This document shows, piece after piece, positions 52,379-61,708 of a stretch of 64,000 nt of DNA. The DNA lies in NCBI GenBank assembly GCA_021372725.1, contig JAJFTV010000140.1:1-64000 (forward strand), given 5' to 3'. The notes beneath the pieces are model-generated. The model was given only the letters and a program-made list of their open reading frames with translations, searched no databases and was not told where the DNA came from. Both the position numbers and the translations under genes were made by a program. The DNA comes from Chloroflexota bacterium (GTDB lineage: Bacteria > Chloroflexota > Anaerolineae > Anaerolineales > Anaerolineaceae). Position 1 is the first letter of the stretch; each line of letters starts with the position of its first letter.

Positions 52379-53980
52379 TCACTTTCTACGCGACTTTTCC
52401 AGCAATACGTTCATGATCGCATCAGAGGGTTGGATATGTGGTGGTTTTAAGTGAGCAAGATCTGCGCCAACTTTTAACTGGAAGTCTTTGTAATAAGCAA
52501 AAGAATCGCTAACGAGTTTAGTGATCTTCAAATGACCGCATCCCAACAATTCTTCCAGATCAGGGAATTCCGGTACGTTCTTGATTAACCCTTCGCGCAG
52601 TACTCTCGATAGATCATCTTCCGAGATGACACCATTTTCTTTCAGCTCAAGGTAAATGTGTAGAAATGTTTCTTCGTCATTCTCTTCTTTTCTGGCCACC
52701 CAATCCACATATCTCAATTGCGTGTATTCAAGTGATTGAGCAATTTGTACTTCTGTTATGCGCGCAATGGCGCCGATATCAATGATATCGTCTGTCCGCG
52801 AATACAGTCTGAATTGCGGTAAATTGATGCCGGCCTCCCGGTCGCTTAGATCGATCACCTCGAACAAGTCACCGATCCGGTAGCGGGTGAAAACACCTCC
52901 CAGCAGATTGGTGAAAACAAGCTCATACAAGCCATGCCGGACTTCATCGGCAAGCAATGTATGGGGTTGATAATTTCGATCCAGTTTATTCTTCAAATAT
53001 TCTTCATAGGGGATAAATTCAAGGAAATTGCTTTCGGGGTAGAAGTTCAATCCGTAATAGGTCCAGGCCATGGTTGCCATGGCACCGCCCTCGGTACAGA
53101 TGTGACCTTCCAGCGGTTTCCTGCCCCAATACCGCTCAACTTTCTCGCGATACACCCTTGTATCAGTTCCTGTGGTGATGATGCCTTTTACATCCCAAAT
53201 ATCCTTGGGTAATATGTGCCGGTTTTCGATTTTTGATTTGATCAGGCCTTTGAGCATGCGGGACAGGATTTTGGGTTTCAGGTATTTGCTGGAAAGTTTG
53301 GACTTTTTCCCGCGCTCGTACATTTCACCGACCTTGGCCAGTACGCTGGAAAGCCCAAAGAAATAATCCAACCCCAGTTCGGTGGCCATTTCAAAACCGG
53401 TATTGATGCGCTCTTCGAAGGACATTTTTTCACCCTCATCCAGCGAAGGAAGAAATTGGATGTTGGTTTGCTGCTCGGCTGAACGGCTCAGGAAACCCGA
53501 AATGAACGGCTGAGGGGCTGTTGTAAACAGTATTTTATCGTTGTCTTCCAGATTGACATCCCCCCGGAATTTACTGGAGGCAAGCAGCATCCCACCGGTG
53601 ACAGCGTTGCCAAGGAAATCATACGTTCTGCTGGATAAAGGCACCCATTTGTGACCGCTGAGGGATGTGCGGCCGGAAGTATACGCCCATCGATATTCTC
53701 CCGGAGGAAGCACATCCTCTCTTTTTTCAAGCAGAAATGGCGCGTAAACTTCGTAATTGGTAAGCGGAACATTATTGCGAAACTCCTCTACACTGCGGGG
53801 CAGGCTGCTGCCAAACAGGTGCTTGCCGATCTTGCTGTTTCCTAAAAACTGCACCTGTTCCATCAAACGGGTCCTCTGGATATGCATGTATTCTGCCAGG
53901 CTTAGGTCCAGAAACCCGCAATATTTGTTCCAAATTTCCTTCTTCTTTTCATCCATAAAAAGGTTAGATGGCTTTGTCAC
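52379..53980 (-). CDS. GH3-family acyl-acid amido synthetase-like enzyme
   Basis: 533 residues from the GTG at 53980 (AAGGAAA upstream). ANL-type adenylating enzyme of the GH3 family: YTSGRTSLSGHKWVPLS is the phosphate loop, CTEGGAMA the adenine region, and FTRYRIGDLFEVID the late hinge motif. Plant GH3 enzymes link jasmonate or auxin to amino acids; bacterial ones are little studied. It overlaps the methyltransferase gene by 17 bases and precedes the HD-GYP gene by 6, forming a three-gene run. Confidence 0.85.
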   Translation of the reverse strand: MTKPSNLFMDEKKKEIWNKYCGFLDLSLAEYMHIQRTRLMEQVQFLGNSKIGKHLFGSSLPRSVEEFRNNVPLTNYEVYAPFLLEKREDVLPPGEYRWAYTSGRTSLSGHKWVPLSSRTYDFLGNAVTGGMLLASSKFRGDVNLEDNDKILFTTAPQPFISGFLSRSAEQQTNIQFLPSLDEGEKMSFEERINTGFEMATELGLDYFFGLSSVLAKVGEMYERGKKSKLSSKYLKPKILSRMLKGLIKSKIENRHILPKDIWDVKGIITTGTDTRVYREKVERYWGRKPLEGHICTEGGAMATMAWTYYGLNFYPESNFLEFIPYEEYLKNKLDRNYQPHTLLADEVRHGLYELVFTNLLGGVFTRYRIGDLFEVIDLSDREAGINLPQFRLYSRTDDIIDIGAIARITEVQIAQSLEYTQLRYVDWVARKEENDEETFLHIYLELKENGVISEDDLSRVLREGLIKNVPEFPDLEELLGCGHLKITKLVSDSFAYYKDFQLKVGADLAHLKPPHIQPSDAIMNVLLEKSRRK

Positions 53981-54719
53981 AAGGGTTTCCTTCCGCGAGG
54001 TTTGCTTTACAGGCACTCAATGCGATGGGTGATGGAGCCCAAAAATGTTTTGATTTCATTTCTTTTACTTCAATTTGGATGAAGCCGGCGTTTTCCAATG
54101 CGGTTTCCCATTCCTGCATGGTATACATATTGGATATTGCCCGGCTTTCAGCCCAGGCGCGGGCCCAGCCTTCTTTGGGCAGAAAATAACAAAACACGAT
54201 AAACTGGAGCACTATTTTATAGGGTGGAAAGTGCCATACCGGAGCAGCTCCCACATCTGCAACAGTGATCCGGCCATTCGGTTTCAGTACGCGCATCATT
54301 TCTGCAATCAGTTGAGTCACATCCATGTGATGTGTCGCAAGACCGCAGGTAATCAGGTCGAAGGTATCATTGCTAAAAGGGATGTTCATGGCTGAAGCGC
54401 ATGTCAGCCTGATTTTTTCCTGTTGATTGTTTTCGGCAATGTTTCGGCTGGCATGTTGTAGCATCGTTGGGGTGATATCGAGACCCACAAAGTGAAAACC
54501 GTTATTCGGAGTTTTGGAAAGCCGCAGCGGTATTACACAGGTGCCGGTCGCAATATCAAGGATAAGATCGTGATCTTCGATTTTGGTGAGCTCGATCAGT
54601 TGATCAACGAATTCTTTATAGGTCCAACCCCAGATCAGTCGAAGCTCTGAATCCACTACTTTCTCATATCGGGGAGCCAACTCGGTAAAAGCTTCTTCGA
54701 CAGCTTTTTTGTGATCCAT
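53964..54719 (-). CDS. Class I SAM-dependent methyltransferase (UbiE-like)
   Basis: 251 residues. Motif I LDIATGTCVIPLRLSKT and VGLDITPTML bind SAM; FDLITCGLATHHM is motif II; VLKPNGRITVADVG is motif III. The N-terminus (FTELAPRYEKVVDSELRLIW) recalls UbiE/COQ5 methyltransferases, but AEC-type quinone genes are not adjacent. First in the run with GH3 and HD-GYP genes, so a shared small-molecule product is a fair inference. Confidence 0.85.
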   Translation of the reverse strand: MDHKKAVEEAFTELAPRYEKVVDSELRLIWGWTYKEFVDQLIELTKIEDHDLILDIATGTCVIPLRLSKTPNNGFHFVGLDITPTMLQHASRNIAENNQQEKIRLTCASAMNIPFSNDTFDLITCGLATHHMDVTQLIAEMMRVLKPNGRITVADVGAAPVWHFPPYKIVLQFIVFCYFLPKEGWARAWAESRAISNMYTMQEWETALENAGFIQIEVKEMKSKHFWAPSPIALSACKANLAEGNPCDKAI

Positions 54720-55073: not shown

Positions 55074-55076
55074 TAG

Positions 55077-55151
<75 letters not shown>

Positions 55152-55270: not shown

Positions 55271-56329
55271 TTATTCCGCTGCTGCAGCTATCACCTTCGC
55301 AAAGTCATCTTTGTAAGTTTGTAGATCGATATTCCACTGCTGATAGGCGGGATCATTTCTTTTATCAGCCAGATCGAATGTCTTCTGGAGGTAAGCACCT
55401 AAATGATGCGAGACCTTTTGAGCGCCAAGAATATTGAGATGAAGCTCATCCCAAAAATCCGTTGTTGTATTGATGTCTGTTGCATCCAGCAGCTCGTCCA
55501 GGCAATAGTCAATATATTGAATATTGTAAGTATCGGCTAGCTGCTTGACAGCGAGATGCCTCGAATAATCCCAGTTGACTCGGGGTAAGGTTACAATCAC
55601 TACACCGATATCGTTTTCCTGGCATAGCCGGATCATTTTTTCAAAATAATTAAGGGAGTCCTTCGAAAATGGTGTGATGGTATCGGTTGGCTGCATATAA
55701 TCTTCCGGGAATTCAAGGTCTCCCGTTTCAATACGTATTCCATAGAAACCTTTATATGGATAGCCTACCTTCTTTACATCATTTGTAAAATCCAATTTGT
55801 CAAGATCATCCCACCTGGAATGATAGCGGAGTATGGGGAACAGATAGCTTATAACGGTTTGTCTCTCACTGCGGGAGACAACGTCCATGACAAGTTCGAG
55901 TTTTTCAGCCGATAGGTTCATTGGATCAATGGCTATCCTCAGTTTGCCCTCTTTTTCATCCACATCGTAATCTGCAAACAGGGAAGTCGTATCGATCACA
56001 ACAACTGCCGGTTTTTGATACTTTAATGACTCAACCAGGTAGTGATAAGATACTGCGGGTGCCTGGCCGCTGATCGCACGGACATACCCGGTAAACCCGT
56101 AATCTTCCCACATAAAAAGAGGAGATATTCCTTGGAAAAAAGTACTGGCACCCAGAAACAGGACATCAATCGAATTTTCTGGTTGGTCGTTGAAGGCCAT
56201 ATTATTTTCCAGAGTTGTTGCAAAAGCTCCATCTTTAGGTATCAACGTTTTCGTGAAATACGAAAACAGCAGGCAAAAAATACCCAGGAATGCGGTTACT
56301 TTGATGATTTGTATATATTTATTCTTCAT
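55271..56329 (-). CDS. DltD/SGNH-like membrane-anchored protein (copy 2)
   Basis: 352 residues: an N-terminal membrane anchor (about 8-28) and an extracellular SGNH-type domain with nucleophile-like Ser62 in VLFLGAST and the closing Asp-His block DFWDELHLNILGAQKVSHHLG. It shares most of its length with the gene just upstream, so they are tandem paralogues. DltD-like proteins hand the acyl group from the MBOAT channel to an outside acceptor. Last gene of the Dlt-like operon. Confidence 0.82.
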   Translation of the reverse strand: MKNKYIQIIKVTAFLGIFCLLFSYFTKTLIPKDGAFATTLENNMAFNDQPENSIDVLFLGASTFFQGISPLFMWEDYGFTGYVRAISGQAPAVSYHYLVESLKYQKPAVVVIDTTSLFADYDVDEKEGKLRIAIDPMNLSAEKLELVMDVVSRSERQTVISYLFPILRYHSRWDDLDKLDFTNDVKKVGYPYKGFYGIRIETGDLEFPEDYMQPTDTITPFSKDSLNYFEKMIRLCQENDIGVVIVTLPRVNWDYSRHLAVKQLADTYNIQYIDYCLDELLDATDINTTTDFWDELHLNILGAQKVSHHLGAYLQKTFDLADKRNDPAYQQWNIDLQTYKDDFAKVIAAAAE

Positions 56330-56379
56330 TGAGATAATTTGTGAACCCGTTGAGATAAAATCTGTGGCATTCTTTTCGA

Positions 56380-57441
56380 TTACTTGGCAATCGTGACTGG
56401 CATCGCTTCGGCAAAGTCATCTTTGTAAGTTTGTAGATCGATATTCCACTGCTGATAGACAGGATCATTTCTTTTATCTGCCAGGTGATACGTGTTCTGG
56501 AGAAAACCGCCCAGGTGATGAGATACTTTTTTTGCACCGAGAGTATTCAGGTGAATATCATCTGCGAAATCAGTATTTGTATCCAGATCGATTGTTTCCA
56601 TGTTTTCATCCAGACAATAATCCACATACTGCAAATTATACTTGTCAGCCAACTGCTGGATGCCGAGATGCATCGGATAGTCCCAATTGGTTCTGGGCAT
56701 GGTTATTAAAACGACCTGGATGTTGTTTTCCTGACACAGTTGGATCATTTTTTCATAATAATTTAGCGAATCTTTCGATAAATTCTTTGCTTTGTCAGCC
56801 GGCTGCATGAAATCCTGAGGAAAATTCACGGATGATGTATTAAAATACAATCCATAGTATCCTTTGTTAAGATCGATTATTTCATTTGCACTTTTTTCAA
56901 AGTTGTTACGAGTTAATTCATCCCATCTCGAGTGATAACGCAACAGGGGAAAAATATAGCTCGCGGTGGTCTGTCTCTCACTTTTTGAGGTAACCTCCAT
57001 AATTAATTGCAGTTTTTCATTTGAAAACCTCATTGGATCAATGGATCTTCTCAGACTACTTTCTTCTTCATCCACCCGGTATTTATCAAAAATGGAATTT
57101 GTCTCGATGACAACCACATCCGGCGTCTGGTACTTGAGTGTCTCAACCAGATAATAATAGGATACAACAGGCGCCTGAATCGCTGTGGCACGGACAAAAC
57201 CGGTGAAACCATGTTTTTCCCACATGTCCAGGGGAATGATGCCCATGTAAAAAGAACTGGCTCCCAGGTATAAGACATCGATTGAATTCTCCGGCTGATC
57301 ATAAAATGAATCGAACCGTGCAACCACCGGCACATCTCTATGACTATAAGGGTTAAAAATTGTAGAGAAGTACGAGAACAAAAGGCAGAATATACCCAGG
57401 AATGCGGTGATTTTGATGACAAGTTGATATTTGCTCTTCAT
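56380..57441 (-). CDS. DltD/SGNH-like membrane-anchored protein (copy 1)
   Basis: 353 residues with the same plan as its neighbour: anchor (about 9-28), VLYLGASSF with the candidate serine, a long stretch shared with the neighbour (KYHSRW-type LLRYHSRWDEL, YYEKMIQLCQENN), and closing DDIHLNTLGAKKVSHHLG. The last 40 residues of both copies are nearly identical (DPxYQQWNIDLQTYKDDFA). It begins 9 bases after the MBOAT stop, so co-translation is likely. Acceptor unknown. Confidence 0.83.
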   Translation of the reverse strand: MKSKYQLVIKITAFLGIFCLLFSYFSTIFNPYSHRDVPVVARFDSFYDQPENSIDVLYLGASSFYMGIIPLDMWEKHGFTGFVRATAIQAPVVSYYYLVETLKYQTPDVVVIETNSIFDKYRVDEEESSLRRSIDPMRFSNEKLQLIMEVTSKSERQTTASYIFPLLRYHSRWDELTRNNFEKSANEIIDLNKGYYGLYFNTSSVNFPQDFMQPADKAKNLSKDSLNYYEKMIQLCQENNIQVVLITMPRTNWDYPMHLGIQQLADKYNLQYVDYCLDENMETIDLDTNTDFADDIHLNTLGAKKVSHHLGGFLQNTYHLADKRNDPVYQQWNIDLQTYKDDFAEAMPVTIAK

Positions 57442-57450
57442 TGAAGCACT

Positions 57451-59049
57451 TTAAAAACCCATGTAGATGAAATCGGAGGAAACGTATTCGATTCCATAAA
57501 TGCCAAATATCAAAATGGAAAATATGGCAGTGAAATAAATCGCCCAGCGAAAAACAATATTTTGCTCGGATATTTTTTCGCGCAGCTTGTAACCTTTTTC
57601 CTGCAAGATGCCTACCACCAGCAGGACGAGCATCGCAACGATCAATAATTCCAGGTTTTTTTCATTCAGCCCCAATCTGGTAAACTGTTCGCCAGTCAAG
57701 ACCCACGGGTTGAAGATCCTGAATGTTCGCTTCAACATCCTCAAGGCTGTCATCAGGTCGGGCGCCCTGGAAAAATATCGACCGATGACAATCAGGAACG
57801 TAGTACCCAGAATTTTCATCAAGCGCCAACTGAAACTTGTTATTTTTGCATTGTCTTGAGTAAAGATACGGGAAAGAAAGGGATCAAACAAAATGCCGGC
57901 AAAGATGAGCGTACCGTTGTACAGGCCATAGACAACATATTTCCAGTTTGCCCCATGCCAGATACCGACTGCCAAAAACGTAATCAGCATGGCCAGGAAG
58001 GTGGGCACCAGTTTGCCCAGGTGATTGCCGAAGATTTTGCGGGACCATTTCCCCAGACGCACAAACGAACGGGAAAGCGAAAGGGGATAGAAAACATAAT
58101 CCCGCATCCATTCGCTAAGCGAGATATGCCATCTTCGCCAGAAGTCGGAAATTGAGGTGGCAAAGAATGGACGCCTGAAATTTTCTCTCAGGTTAATCCC
58201 CATCACCTGTGCGATACCCCTGGCAATATCGATGCCGCCGGAGAAGTCACAATAGATTTGCACGCAGTAGAGAAAAACCGCAATAAAAATGGTAAGCCCT
58301 TCATACTCCAGATAGTTATCGAAAACCGTATTGACAATGATCGCCGCCCGGTCTGCGATGACCAGTTTTTTGAACAGCCCCCACAGCATCAATTGCAGGC
58401 CATATTTGGCCTGAGTAGTATCGAATTTGTGAGGTTCATAAAGCTGGCCTGCCAGTTCGTCATAGCGGCCGATAGGGCCCTGTACGATTTGTGGAAAATA
58501 AGAAACAAACAGAGCAAATTTGGCAATATTTTTATCCGGGGTAATCTTTCCGCGATATACATCGATCACATAACCAGCGGACTGAAAGGTATAAAACGAG
58601 ATCCCCAGTGGTCGCAGCAAATTCAATTCCGGGAGCGCTGCCTTGATCGACAGAAAACTCAACAGTGAATTGGTGCTGATGGCAAAGAAATTGAAATATT
58701 TTAGGAAGGCGAGAATTCCAAAGTTGATGACTAATGCAACCGCGAGAATTTTATACTTGTTCTTTTTGTTTTCTGCTTTTAACTGCTTTTTTTGCTCTTT
58801 GGTTAGTGTATCGACGCCTTCAGCGAGTGTCCTGGTATATCGGTCATTCGCTTTCCCCATCAGAATACCAGTGTAGAAGGTTGTTACTGTTGTGAAGATG
58901 AGAAGAAGTGAGGTCAGCGGGCCGGATGCAATGTAAAAAACATAGCTTGCCACGAGCGTCACGATCCATTGAAATTTTTTTGGGATCAAAAAATAGATTG
59001 CAAATGATACCAGCAGAAAGATAAAAAATGGAAGTGAAGTAAAACTCAT
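57451..59049 (-). CDS. MBOAT family O-acyltransferase (DltB/AlgI-like)
   Basis: 532 residues, polytopic. MBOAT signature with the catalytic histidine in GIWHGANWKYVVYGLYNG (His near residue 363) and the upstream FRRPFFATSISDFWRRWHISLSEWMRDYVF shortened form (FWRRWHISLSEW). The length fits the AlgI/DltB type that moves an acyl group across the membrane with help from a carrier protein and an SGNH partner. Central gene of the operon; about 50 bases after the carrier protein. Confidence 0.92.
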   Translation of the reverse strand: MSFTSLPFFIFLLVSFAIYFLIPKKFQWIVTLVASYVFYIASGPLTSLLLIFTTVTTFYTGILMGKANDRYTRTLAEGVDTLTKEQKKQLKAENKKNKYKILAVALVINFGILAFLKYFNFFAISTNSLLSFLSIKAALPELNLLRPLGISFYTFQSAGYVIDVYRGKITPDKNIAKFALFVSYFPQIVQGPIGRYDELAGQLYEPHKFDTTQAKYGLQLMLWGLFKKLVIADRAAIIVNTVFDNYLEYEGLTIFIAVFLYCVQIYCDFSGGIDIARGIAQVMGINLRENFRRPFFATSISDFWRRWHISLSEWMRDYVFYPLSLSRSFVRLGKWSRKIFGNHLGKLVPTFLAMLITFLAVGIWHGANWKYVVYGLYNGTLIFAGILFDPFLSRIFTQDNAKITSFSWRLMKILGTTFLIVIGRYFSRAPDLMTALRMLKRTFRIFNPWVLTGEQFTRLGLNEKNLELLIVAMLVLLVVGILQEKGYKLREKISEQNIVFRWAIYFTAIFSILIFGIYGIEYVSSDFIYMGF

Positions 59050-59102
59050 CGATGATTCCCTCGTCCTGATGTTTCAGCCAGGCAGGCTGTGCAATTCAGG
59101 AA

Positions 59103-59333
59103 TTACCCTTCGTCTTGAAGCCGTCGGATCAGTTCAATAATGGCACTTGCTGAGTTGAAGTTTTCCGGAAGCAGGTTCTCCACCCCGATTTCAATATCAA
59201 AATGATCATTGATTTCCCCCACCAAAGAAATGATGTCAAAGGAATCGAGGATACCCTCGTCAATCAGTTTCTGTTGATTTGTAAAATCCACGTCAGGTCG
59301 CAATTCGGACAAAATTATTAACAGTTCTTCCAT
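59103..59333 (-). CDS. Acyl/peptidyl carrier protein (DltC-like)
   Basis: 76 residues from the ATG at 59333, with AAGGA eight bases upstream. The phosphopantetheine site is Ser31 in GILDSFDIISLVGEI, with the flanking acidic helices usual for carriers. It begins 10 bases after the GNAT stop. Size and neighbours match DltC, which carries the adenylated amino acid as thioester; a fatty acid role is less likely beside an amino-acid adenylating enzyme. Confidence 0.9.
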   Translation of the reverse strand: MEELLIILSELRPDVDFTNQQKLIDEGILDSFDIISLVGEINDHFDIEIGVENLLPENFNSASAIIELIRRLQDEG

Positions 59334-59343
59334 TATTTTTTCC

Positions 59344-60198
59344 TTAAATCTGGATGTGATTATCTTGTAATTTCTGGAGCAGTTGGCTTGAAACCACGCC
59401 ATCGAATTGAAATCCAAAATAAAGATACAGTTTGATGGCTGGCAAATTATTGGTTTCCACCCAAAGAATGTAACGGTTGATATTAATACATTCTGAAAAA
59501 CAGAAATTCATCAAAATCTTTGCCAGCCCGCGCCGCCGGTGCTTTTCATCCACTGCCACATGCCGGATTATGCAGACCTTGTTTTCAGGCTGAAACTGGA
59601 GTGCAGCAGCGATATGTTGACCCTTGTCCAGAACACACAAGATCTGTTTTTTTTCGAGATAGTTTATCATCTCATCACCGGAAGGCAGGGCATCACTATA
59701 AATATCCAGTGTGCTTCTCCAGAGCGCTGTGATTTCATCAAGGTGCGAACACCGGGCAAATGCTTTCGTATAATCCATGCTATCCGGAATTTGCGGATTG
59801 AAGGGCTCCGAATCCACAAAACCGGCAGTGAGCGACATCCGTTTGTAAGATTTGTACCGGGTGAAGCCGCCGCCAACCCATTTGTCTTCTATCGCACATA
59901 GTACGCCGGGTTTACTTGAATCCCGGTGGATCAGGTTGATAATAACCGGTTTGTCTGGTTTGCCAAACCCAACCTCGGCCTGTTCTGCCAGATAAAAGTA
60001 CAGGTTGTAAAAATCTCCCTCATCACAAAGAAAGCAAATCCCGGTTTCCATGCTCGCATAGAACATTTTCTTTTGATGAGTGTATCGTTGGATATGAGCC
60101 GGCAGGAGATAACAGTTTGAAATCAGATTTCCTGAAGCTGCCTTTGTCTCTTTTACCAGAGCGCTGAAATGCTTTAGATCATTAACCCGTTCCATCAA
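59344..60198 (-). CDS. GNAT N-acetyltransferase domain protein
   Basis: 284 residues. The C-terminal GNAT domain shows the acetyl-CoA pyrophosphate loop HVAVDEKHRRRGLAKILM and the late strand-helix NNLPAIKLYLYFGFQF. The N-terminal 130 residues have no clear match. It overlaps the adenylating gene by 17 bases and precedes the carrier by 10, so it is built into the operon. It could acetylate the loaded amino acid or act on the carrier-bound substrate. Classic dlt operons lack it. Confidence 0.82.
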   Translation of the reverse strand: MMERVNDLKHFSALVKETKAASGNLISNCYLLPAHIQRYTHQKKMFYASMETGICFLCDEGDFYNLYFYLAEQAEVGFGKPDKPVIINLIHRDSSKPGVLCAIEDKWVGGGFTRYKSYKRMSLTAGFVDSEPFNPQIPDSMDYTKAFARCSHLDEITALWRSTLDIYSDALPSGDEMINYLEKKQILCVLDKGQHIAAALQFQPENKVCIIRHVAVDEKHRRRGLAKILMNFCFSECININRYILWVETNNLPAIKLYLYFGFQFDGVVSSQLLQKLQDNHIQI

Positions 60199-61708
60199 GA
60201 TACTGTTCCTTCAATTTGATTCTGTCAATTTTGGCATTCTTGTTCAGGGGCAGTTGTTCAAAGTGAACCAGTTTATTGGGCAGCATATATTTGGGAAGAT
60301 ATTTCTGCAGGCCGATTAAAATCTCCCGCTCACATTTTTGAGGAGCTTGATAAAATGCGACGATTTTTTCACGCTGTGGATCATACAGGCAGCAAGCCGC
60401 GTCGATAAAATTCAATGCGTTAAGCGCGACTTCGATTTCACCCAATTCAATCCGGTGCCCCTTATGTTTTATCTGGTGATCCTTGCGGGAGATGAACAGC
60501 AATTCGTTGCGTTCATTATATTTGCCCAGGTCACCTGTTCGGAAAATCAAATCCGGATAATCGGGATTTAACGGGTTTTGACAAAATGCCTTGGCTGTCT
60601 CGTCGGGATTTTTATAATACCCGGTTGCCAGACAGGAACCTCGGATATAGATCTCTCCCAACTCGCCGTTTTCAACGGGCCGGCCTTTCTCATTAAGTAC
60701 CAGGATGCTGTTATTCGGAAAGGGCGTTCCGATGGGCAACACTTCGTTATCCGCAAACGGCCTGTCGACAATAAAATATGTGCAGTTATAGGCGATCTCT
60801 GATTGACCATAAAGATTAATATACTGTGCTTCTGGAAGGTATTTCCGCCAGTAATTGAGGACCTTGTTTGGCATGACCTCACCAGAGAACAGGATTTTAT
60901 TAAGGTATGCAGGAGTATCCTTGTCCAACCCCTTTAGACTGGCAATAACGCGCAAGGCCGAAGTTACCCAAATTGCGGTGTTGACTCTTTTTTCAGTGAG
61001 GTATTTGACCAGATTCGACGGGAAGGAAAATAGTTCGCCAGGAATGATCTGCAGTGTCGCTCCATGCTTAAGGGTTGAGTAAATATCCTTTAAAGAAACA
61101 CTAAAATCAAATGGAGCTTGATTCCCCAAAATACATTCTGCTGAAAATTCAAAAATTTCTGAAAAAATATCTGTCATAGATATGACAGAGCGGTGATTGA
61201 TCACAACACCTTTGGGTATGCCTGTCGATCCGGAAGTAAAGAATATACACAATGGATCAGAATCAAGGCAATTGCTGCGGATTCCGGAAAGCCTGTCTTC
61301 ATCGATGGGACAAGTCACGGCATCTTTGAACAGAATTTGCTGCCCTTTGAATTGCAGCAAGTTCATTAACTCGGCATCCTTGTGTGACAGGATGACGGCT
61401 TGAGGTTGCAGGGCGTTTAGAATCAAATCAATTCGATGAGGGGGTTGTTTGCCGTCGATGGGGACATAAAAATTCCCGCTGAAAACTGTTCCCAAAAACG
61501 ATACCAGGCTTGAGATATTCCGGTTAATCACAACTGCGACAGGCTGGTTGGTTTTGCCATTTAATACTGCGGCCAGATAGCTTCCAATTGCCTTCGCCTG
61601 ATGAAGAAGGTCGCAGTACGTTACCTGCTCTTGCGGGTCGGCAAATGCTGTTTTATTGGGATACTTATCGGCCGAGCGCTCCAGATATTCCAGTACATTG
61701 GTTCTCAT
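60182..61708 (-). CDS. Stand-alone amino-acid adenylating enzyme (DltA-like)
   Basis: 508 residues, the length of DltA. Core motifs in order: A3 FFTSGSTGIPKG (157-168), substrate Asp201 in FDFSVSLKDIY (the aspartate that binds the alpha-amino group in amino-acid-specific domains), YGQSEIAYN where YGPTE is usual, RTGDL, HQIKHKGHRIELGEIE and the catalytic Lys493 in NKNAKIDR. It should activate an amino acid with ATP and load it on the carrier two genes downstream. A weak TTGTCC-N15-TATAAA lies at 61786-61812 (minus strand). First gene of the Dlt-like operon. Confidence 0.9.
   Translation of the reverse strand: MRTNVLEYLERSADKYPNKTAFADPQEQVTYCDLLHQAKAIGSYLAAVLNGKTNQPVAVVINRNISSLVSFLGTVFSGNFYVPIDGKQPPHRIDLILNALQPQAVILSHKDAELMNLLQFKGQQILFKDAVTCPIDEDRLSGIRSNCLDSDPLCIFFTSGSTGIPKGVVINHRSVISMTDIFSEIFEFSAECILGNQAPFDFSVSLKDIYSTLKHGATLQIIPGELFSFPSNLVKYLTEKRVNTAIWVTSALRVIASLKGLDKDTPAYLNKILFSGEVMPNKVLNYWRKYLPEAQYINLYGQSEIAYNCTYFIVDRPFADNEVLPIGTPFPNNSILVLNEKGRPVENGELGEIYIRGSCLATGYYKNPDETAKAFCQNPLNPDYPDLIFRTGDLGKYNERNELLFISRKDHQIKHKGHRIELGEIEVALNALNFIDAACCLYDPQREKIVAFYQAPQKCEREILIGLQKYLPKYMLPNKLVHFEQLPLNKNAKIDRIKLKEQYLDGTG

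Follow-up and report, generated by a model that had tools for sequence, protein, structure and literature searches.

What does a Dlt-like operon deliver to the cell surface when the gene of a GNAT acetyltransferase stands between its adenylase and its carrier protein? The question is raised by the genome of a Chloroflexota bacterium of the family Anaerolineaceae. We have analysed the first 64,000 nt of its contig JAJFTV010000140.1, which will be called the window. At positions 55271–61708 there are six open reading frames (ORFs), placed head-to-tail on the minus strand: an adenylase (A), the GNAT, a carrier (C), an MBOAT acyltransferase and two SGNH proteins (SGNH1 and SGNH2). This order had been described in the first-pass annotation. 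It is borne out by the ORFs and by a Pfam scan, which finds AMP-binding, GNAT, PP-binding and MBOAT domains plus a weak GDSL/SGNH match.

Our preferred reading, held with modest confidence, is an envelope acylation operon whose cytoplasmic front end is of the Dlt type and whose membrane back end is of the PatA/AlgI type, with N-acyl tailoring in line. By homology, A would form the adenylate of an amino acid and load the latter on the phosphopantetheine at Ser31 of C. The exchange of the GNAT gene with a formyltransferase gene, described below, suggests that the GNAT would N-acetylate the aminoacyl group, most likely on C, before export. By analogy with PatA/DltX chemistry, the MBOAT would then transfer the N-acetyl-aminoacyl group, with the help of His365, from C to the tyrosine of its own FIYMGF motif on the outer side. 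As expected from DltD and PatB, a serine of either or both SGNH proteins would receive the group and pass it on as an ester to a surface glycan or lipid, at a hydroxyl. The capped amine would have no positive charge, unlike the product of D-alanylation.

An exchangeable gene between adenylase and carrier

The nearest relative of the operon is found in Ornatilinea (L016), with 69.5% identity in A and 76.7% in the MBOAT. At exactly the position of the GNAT gene it has a formyltransferase (PF00551, 6e-18). A third enzyme appears in many Ruminococcus loci, which have a LysA-like decarboxylase dependent on pyridoxal phosphate (PLP) after the carrier gene; in L088 and L092 its gene is located between those of A and C. 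These slot types should not be read as frequencies, since our sample of relatives is biased towards the best carrier matches and targeted fetches.

A maximum-likelihood tree of 43 adenylases, with bootstrap, gives the A proteins of the window and L016 as sisters (support 99/98). The tree needs seven changes for the GNAT, six of them forced by well-supported branches, and four for the formyltransferase, all of them forced. A single origin for either label is found in no bootstrap tree. The pocket code DVKIMSLCNK is common to the GNAT loci, the formyltransferase loci, part of the decarboxylase loci and part of those with no additional gene. On this tree the slot between A and C is swappable: GNAT and formyltransferase have been interchanged several times, while the code remains mostly constant. 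Most simply, both enzymes would perform an equivalent N-acylation on the same aminoacyl group. The earlier suggestion of an N-acetylated amino acid thus obtains real support from the swaps.

The initiation module (F-A-PCP) of LgrA, a linear gramicidin synthetase, offers a model for this step. Its formylation domain acts on the carrier-bound amino acid, where it places an N-acyl cap; the formyltransferase of the relatives is homologous to this domain, and LgrA is also the top PDB sequence match of A. The N-H-D residues of the formyltransferase family are kept in a three-sequence alignment which includes L016. The operon differs from LgrA in its stand-alone proteins, in membrane export, in the absence of peptide synthesis and, in the window, by having a GNAT and not a formyltransferase.

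The GNAT itself belongs to its superfamily by Pfam, by its AlphaFold model (pLDDT 84.5) and by fold search. Its C-terminal half is an acetyl-CoA-type domain with the motif RRRGLA. The folds matched by the model are VipF, mycothiol synthase, the clavulanate tandem GNAT and PamZ; WecD is also listed.

Distribution of the operon

The GNAT is found in 2 out of 400 genomes of the phylum Chloroflexota. At full length it is present in 4 of 147 genomes searched in the family, its own genome included; the other listed matches are weak and partial. The complete order A-GNAT-C-MBOAT-SGNH appears in two other Anaerolineaceae genera, with unrelated flanks. Since the order recurs in this way it is not due to chance, in support of the earlier proposal of a single pathway. 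The proposed logic of activation, carrier, MBOAT and SGNH protein is likewise supported.

A carrier-based scan of named genomes gave 80 loci, chiefly in Lachnospiraceae and Ruminococcaceae. Searches for the GNAT independent of the carrier gave nine strong matches besides the window (G168, G454, G441, G538, G638, G825, G998, G1027 and G938), the last five of them outside the search profile. All nine have the GNAT within or close to a set of A and C genes. In G998 it lies between MBOAT and SGNH, in G938 some 5.6 kb separate it from the carrier, and in G441 A-GNAT-C is found beside polysaccharide genes (WecB/WecC-like). The formyltransferase search gave nine matches in Lachnospiraceae; five are in A/C operons, including four of the five strongest, and one further match adjoins an MBOAT and an SGNH gene. 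As judged from these matches, the operon has a sporadic distribution in Anaerolineaceae and Clostridia, gut Clostridia included. It had been put forward as a candidate for an undescribed system, which in the strong sense is not supported: the type is also present in gut Clostridia and appears to follow Dlt/Pat logic.

One of the Lachnospiraceae formyltransferase operons (L084:470-9844) contains, between adenylase and carrier, an NMT1-type ABC importer and another AMP-binding ligase. The importer possibly brings in the substrate.

The adenylase and its pocket

The profile scores support the assignment of A to the amino-acid-adenylating class and not to the fatty-acid ligases. It reaches 307 bits with the amino-acid adenylation model TIGR01733, just below the cut-off of 317.4. 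Fatty-acid activation, which had been named among the results that would overturn the proposal, was rejected: amino-acid adenylation models far outscore those of acyl-CoA ligases.

From alignments, the pocket of A is formed by Ser203, Val204, Lys207, Ile246, Leu273, Ser275, Leu299, Tyr307, Asn308 and Lys493. In DltA of B. cereus the amino group of D-Ala is held by Asp197 and its methyl group by Leu, Met200 and Cys268 (PMC8972799). As a DltA-type reference we used a protein from a Bacillota genome, which scores 544.7 bits with TIGR01734, slightly below its cut-off of 559.85. In the alignment the Asp, Met and Cys positions are occupied by Ser203, Lys207 and Ser275 of A, so the D-Ala signature is replaced at all three. 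The aspartate that binds the amino group had been placed at Asp201. This is two residues off and corresponds to the serine of QAPFSFD in DltA; the true position, in alignment with both the DltA-type protein and LgrA, is Ser203 (QAPFSFDLSV in DltA, QAPFDFSVSL in the window).

Over 73 adenylases this position has Asp in 41, Ile in 31 and Ser in a single case, the A protein of the window. The latter also deviates at five of 66 near-invariant columns. Three of these are within the A5 region YGQSEIA (residues 300–306), where the motif GPTE is replaced by GQSE; the changes found there are P302Q, T303S and T306A. Because of Ser203 and these changes, A may either have a changed specificity or be under relaxed constraint or in decay. 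We attempted to predict the substrate from the pocket, but DVKIMSLCNK, with its buried Lys, matched no verifiable code and no amino acid is claimed. Lys207, which is Arg in the decarboxylase clade, might bind a second carboxylate; this is a lead only.

A different pocket, IARCCSQASK, is found in the adenylases of the decarboxylase type (L017, L027 and some 30 other Ruminococcus-type loci): the amino-group Asp is replaced by Ile, and Arg stands where the window has Lys207. This pocket could fit an acidic amino acid loaded via its side-chain carboxylate and decarboxylated on the carrier.

The order of acylation and activation

Several points weigh against N-acylation of a carrier-bound amino acid. 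Given Ser203 and the five changed columns, the substrate of A may differ and its activity may be reduced. In some relatives which share the pocket code no slot enzyme was detected, and in G441 there is no MBOAT or SGNH gene adjacent to A-GNAT-C. Finally, among GNATs and formyltransferases with these folds there are enzymes which N-acylate amino sugars.

The last point leads to an alternative, unlikely but not negligible, since the characterised formyltransferases closest to that of the relatives act on amino sugars: the slot enzyme would acylate an amino sugar of the acceptor polymer, and the remaining genes would attach an unmodified amino acid to that polymer. The top PDB match of the formyltransferase is indeed a GDP-4-amino-sugar formyltransferase, WecD is among the fold matches of the GNAT, and G441 has its WecB/WecC-like neighbours. 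However the slot gene is placed between A and C, often overlapping A, and not among sugar genes. The three full Anaerolineaceae operons have no sugar aminotransferase or dehydratase, and the third enzyme seen at or beside the slot comes from a family of amino-acid decarboxylases.

The pocket of the window suggests another order of events, which we consider still less probable: the GNAT would act first, making a free N-acetyl-amino acid which is then activated by A. Adenylation domains without the amino-group Asp are known for substrates without a free alpha-amino group (PMC11253843), and Ser203, with the A5 changes P302Q, T303S and T306A, could be taken in this sense. But Ser203 is exclusive to the window; the other tabulated GNAT-type relatives retain Asp, and therefore their A should bind a free amine.

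Proposed membrane transfer and comparison with Dlt

Under the preferred reading, acylation on the carrier would be followed by transfer through the MBOAT. In PatA and similar MBOATs the acyl group is carried by the tyrosine of a C-terminal FXYXXF motif, which in Dlt is found on the separate protein DltX; MBOAT-SGNH pathways other than Dlt are stated to use an acyl-CoA donor and to have no carrier (PMC12148441). Of 72 related MBOATs, 63 carry this motif strictly; the window has it as FIYMGF, and it is absent from the C-terminus of the MBOAT beside the DltA-type reference. The conserved histidine of the PatA/AlgI type is also present; it had been placed near residue 363 and its exact position is His365 (GIWHG). 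No separate DltX was found inside the operon: the gaps of 9–53 nt are too small and the motif is on the MBOAT itself.

A carrier donor and a fused shuttle coexist in this operon, as far as can be read from its motifs. With its carrier and adenylase and an MBOAT ending in FIYMGF, it appears to join a carrier front end of the Dlt type to a back end of the PatA type. The likeness to PatAB and AlgIJX O-acetylation lies in the C-terminal FXYXXF, the catalytic His and a partner SGNH protein; the difference is that our operon encodes its own adenylase and carrier. Another comparison is the glycylation of lipid A by AlmEFG, where, outside the Firmicutes, a stand-alone adenylase and carrier supply the envelope with an amino acid. 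That system has no SGNH protein or N-acyl step, and its AlmG is not an MBOAT.

The carrier is 59–70% identical to those of four relatives and has the expected Ser31 in GILDSFD. Its genome has two phosphopantetheinyl transferases, which would be available for priming. Just beyond the window, on the same contig (L127:4505-14930; G000:C71 ~68004-78429), there is a 2675-aa protein which by eye resembles polyketide and polyunsaturated fatty acid (PUFA) synthases. After it come the genes of an Sfp-type phosphopantetheinyl transferase and of a PfaD-like enoyl reductase; this gene set is possibly a synthase of polyunsaturated or unusual lipids in an Anaerolineaceae genome.

The two SGNH proteins are 60.2% identical. 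Both retain the serine of GAS(S/T), GASS in the first and GAST in the second, and a C-terminal D..H. The model of SGNH1 (pLDDT 87.2) has DltD as its top PDB fold match (6pfx, E 1.6e-5; also 3bma), with a TM-score of only 0.4. Their genes are nearly identical over one stretch at the 3′ ends, and because the overall protein identity is 60% this suggests a recent duplication or gene conversion. The doubling had been counted as a feature of the system, but it is a local duplication: L012, L013 and L016 carry one gene, as do relatives with the same order, and we have rejected it as a defining trait.

With respect to the acceptor, the TagF/TagB-type teichoic polymerase PF04464, the only family searched, was not found in the genome of the window (92% complete) nor in G454, G168 and Ornatilinea. 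For this reason a TagF-type teichoic acid is an unlikely acceptor, in agreement with the non-teichoic acceptor suggested in the first-pass annotation.

By its parts the operon is Dlt-like but not Dlt. It has the adenylase, carrier, MBOAT and SGNH logic of DltXABCD, with matches to the DltA, DltB and DltC profiles, an MBOAT which matches DltB structures (1.4e-25) and an SGNH fold nearest to DltD. All of this would suit a divergent D-alanylation operon with an incidental GNAT, which we nevertheless regard as very improbable. The scores are far below the equivalog cut-offs: 284.9 bits for A (TIGR01734), 161.5 for the MBOAT (TIGR04091, cut-off 375) and 27.2 for the carrier (TIGR01688, cut-off 52.35). 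Ser, Lys and Ser replace the Asp, Met and Cys of the D-Ala pocket, the shuttle tyrosine is on the MBOAT without a DltX, no TagF-type polymerase was found, and the linkage of the additional GNAT is kept in all strong carrier-independent matches. Plain D-alanylation was rejected on profile scores, pocket and shuttle placement. The exosortase-A-associated families are more distant: A has 206 bits with the ligase TIGR03098 (cut-off 592) and the PLP enzyme of the relatives 170–187 bits with TIGR03099 (cut-off 478).

A small secreted or lipid natural product in place of a modified polymer is hardly credible: A resembles initiation modules of non-ribosomal peptide synthetases (NRPS) and G441 has no adjacent MBOAT or SGNH gene, but the complete operons have an MBOAT with acyl shuttle and a membrane-anchored SGNH protein, and no condensation domain is nearby.

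Possible significance

We consider the operon a variant of the Dlt/MBOAT-SGNH type with a swappable N-acyl step and a plausible mechanism. It would bridge two mechanisms treated separately, a carrier donor with DltX and an acyl-CoA donor with fused shuttle. D-alanylation is understood as adding positive charge to the wall. A similar machine which caps the amine would add uncharged esters bearing an amide, a surface chemistry which we did not find in the literature searched. Nor did we find a Dlt-like operon containing a GNAT or formyltransferase, in a search with most subscription journals outside its coverage.

More tentatively, with slightly less than even confidence, we propose a class of carrier-dependent envelope acylation in which an exchangeable acetyltransferase, formyltransferase or decarboxylase would edit the carrier-bound amino acid before export by an MBOAT with shuttle. 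If this were true, bacteria would decorate surface polymers with esters of N-acetyl-, N-formyl- or decarboxylated amino acids.

Gene organization and neighbouring genes

The features of the operon are given in Table 1. The A and GNAT genes overlap by 14 nt; the following spacings are 10 nt (GNAT/carrier), 53 nt (carrier/MBOAT), 9 nt (MBOAT/SGNH1) and 50 nt (SGNH1/SGNH2). The extended starts given by the ORF caller for the GNAT (60198) and the carrier (59417) are probably wrong, and therefore these two genes do not overlap. Of the overlaps by which the GNAT was said to be joined to the operon, the one with A stands and the one with the carrier becomes a gap.

Table 1. Genes of the operon in the window
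Gene	Product and features	Position	Strand	Evidence
A	Stand-alone amino-acid adenylase, DltA/NRPS-A-like, 508 aa	60182..61708	-	PF00501 1.2e-61
Slot enzyme	Tandem-GNAT-fold N-acetyltransferase, 283 aa, ATG start	59344..60195	-	PF00583 3.2e-13 over 178-263
C	Carrier, 76 aa, predicted phosphopantetheine site Ser31 in GILDSFD	59103..59333	-	PF00550 1.5e-5
B	MBOAT acyltransferase, 532 aa, His365 in GIWHG, C-terminal FIYMGF	57451..59049	-	PF03062 4.1e-20
D1 (SGNH1)	Membrane-anchored, DltD-like, 353 aa	56380..57441	-	PF13472 1.5e-5, fold match
D2 (SGNH2)	352 aa, 60% identical to D1	55271..56329	-	ORF, identity, motifs

The operon is preceded by the gene of an AEC-type transporter and followed by a tRNA-Val at 55076–55151. 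Farther on, at 52379–54719, the gene of a 545-aa protein of the GH3 family, to which its match is weak, overlaps that of a UbiE-like methyltransferase.

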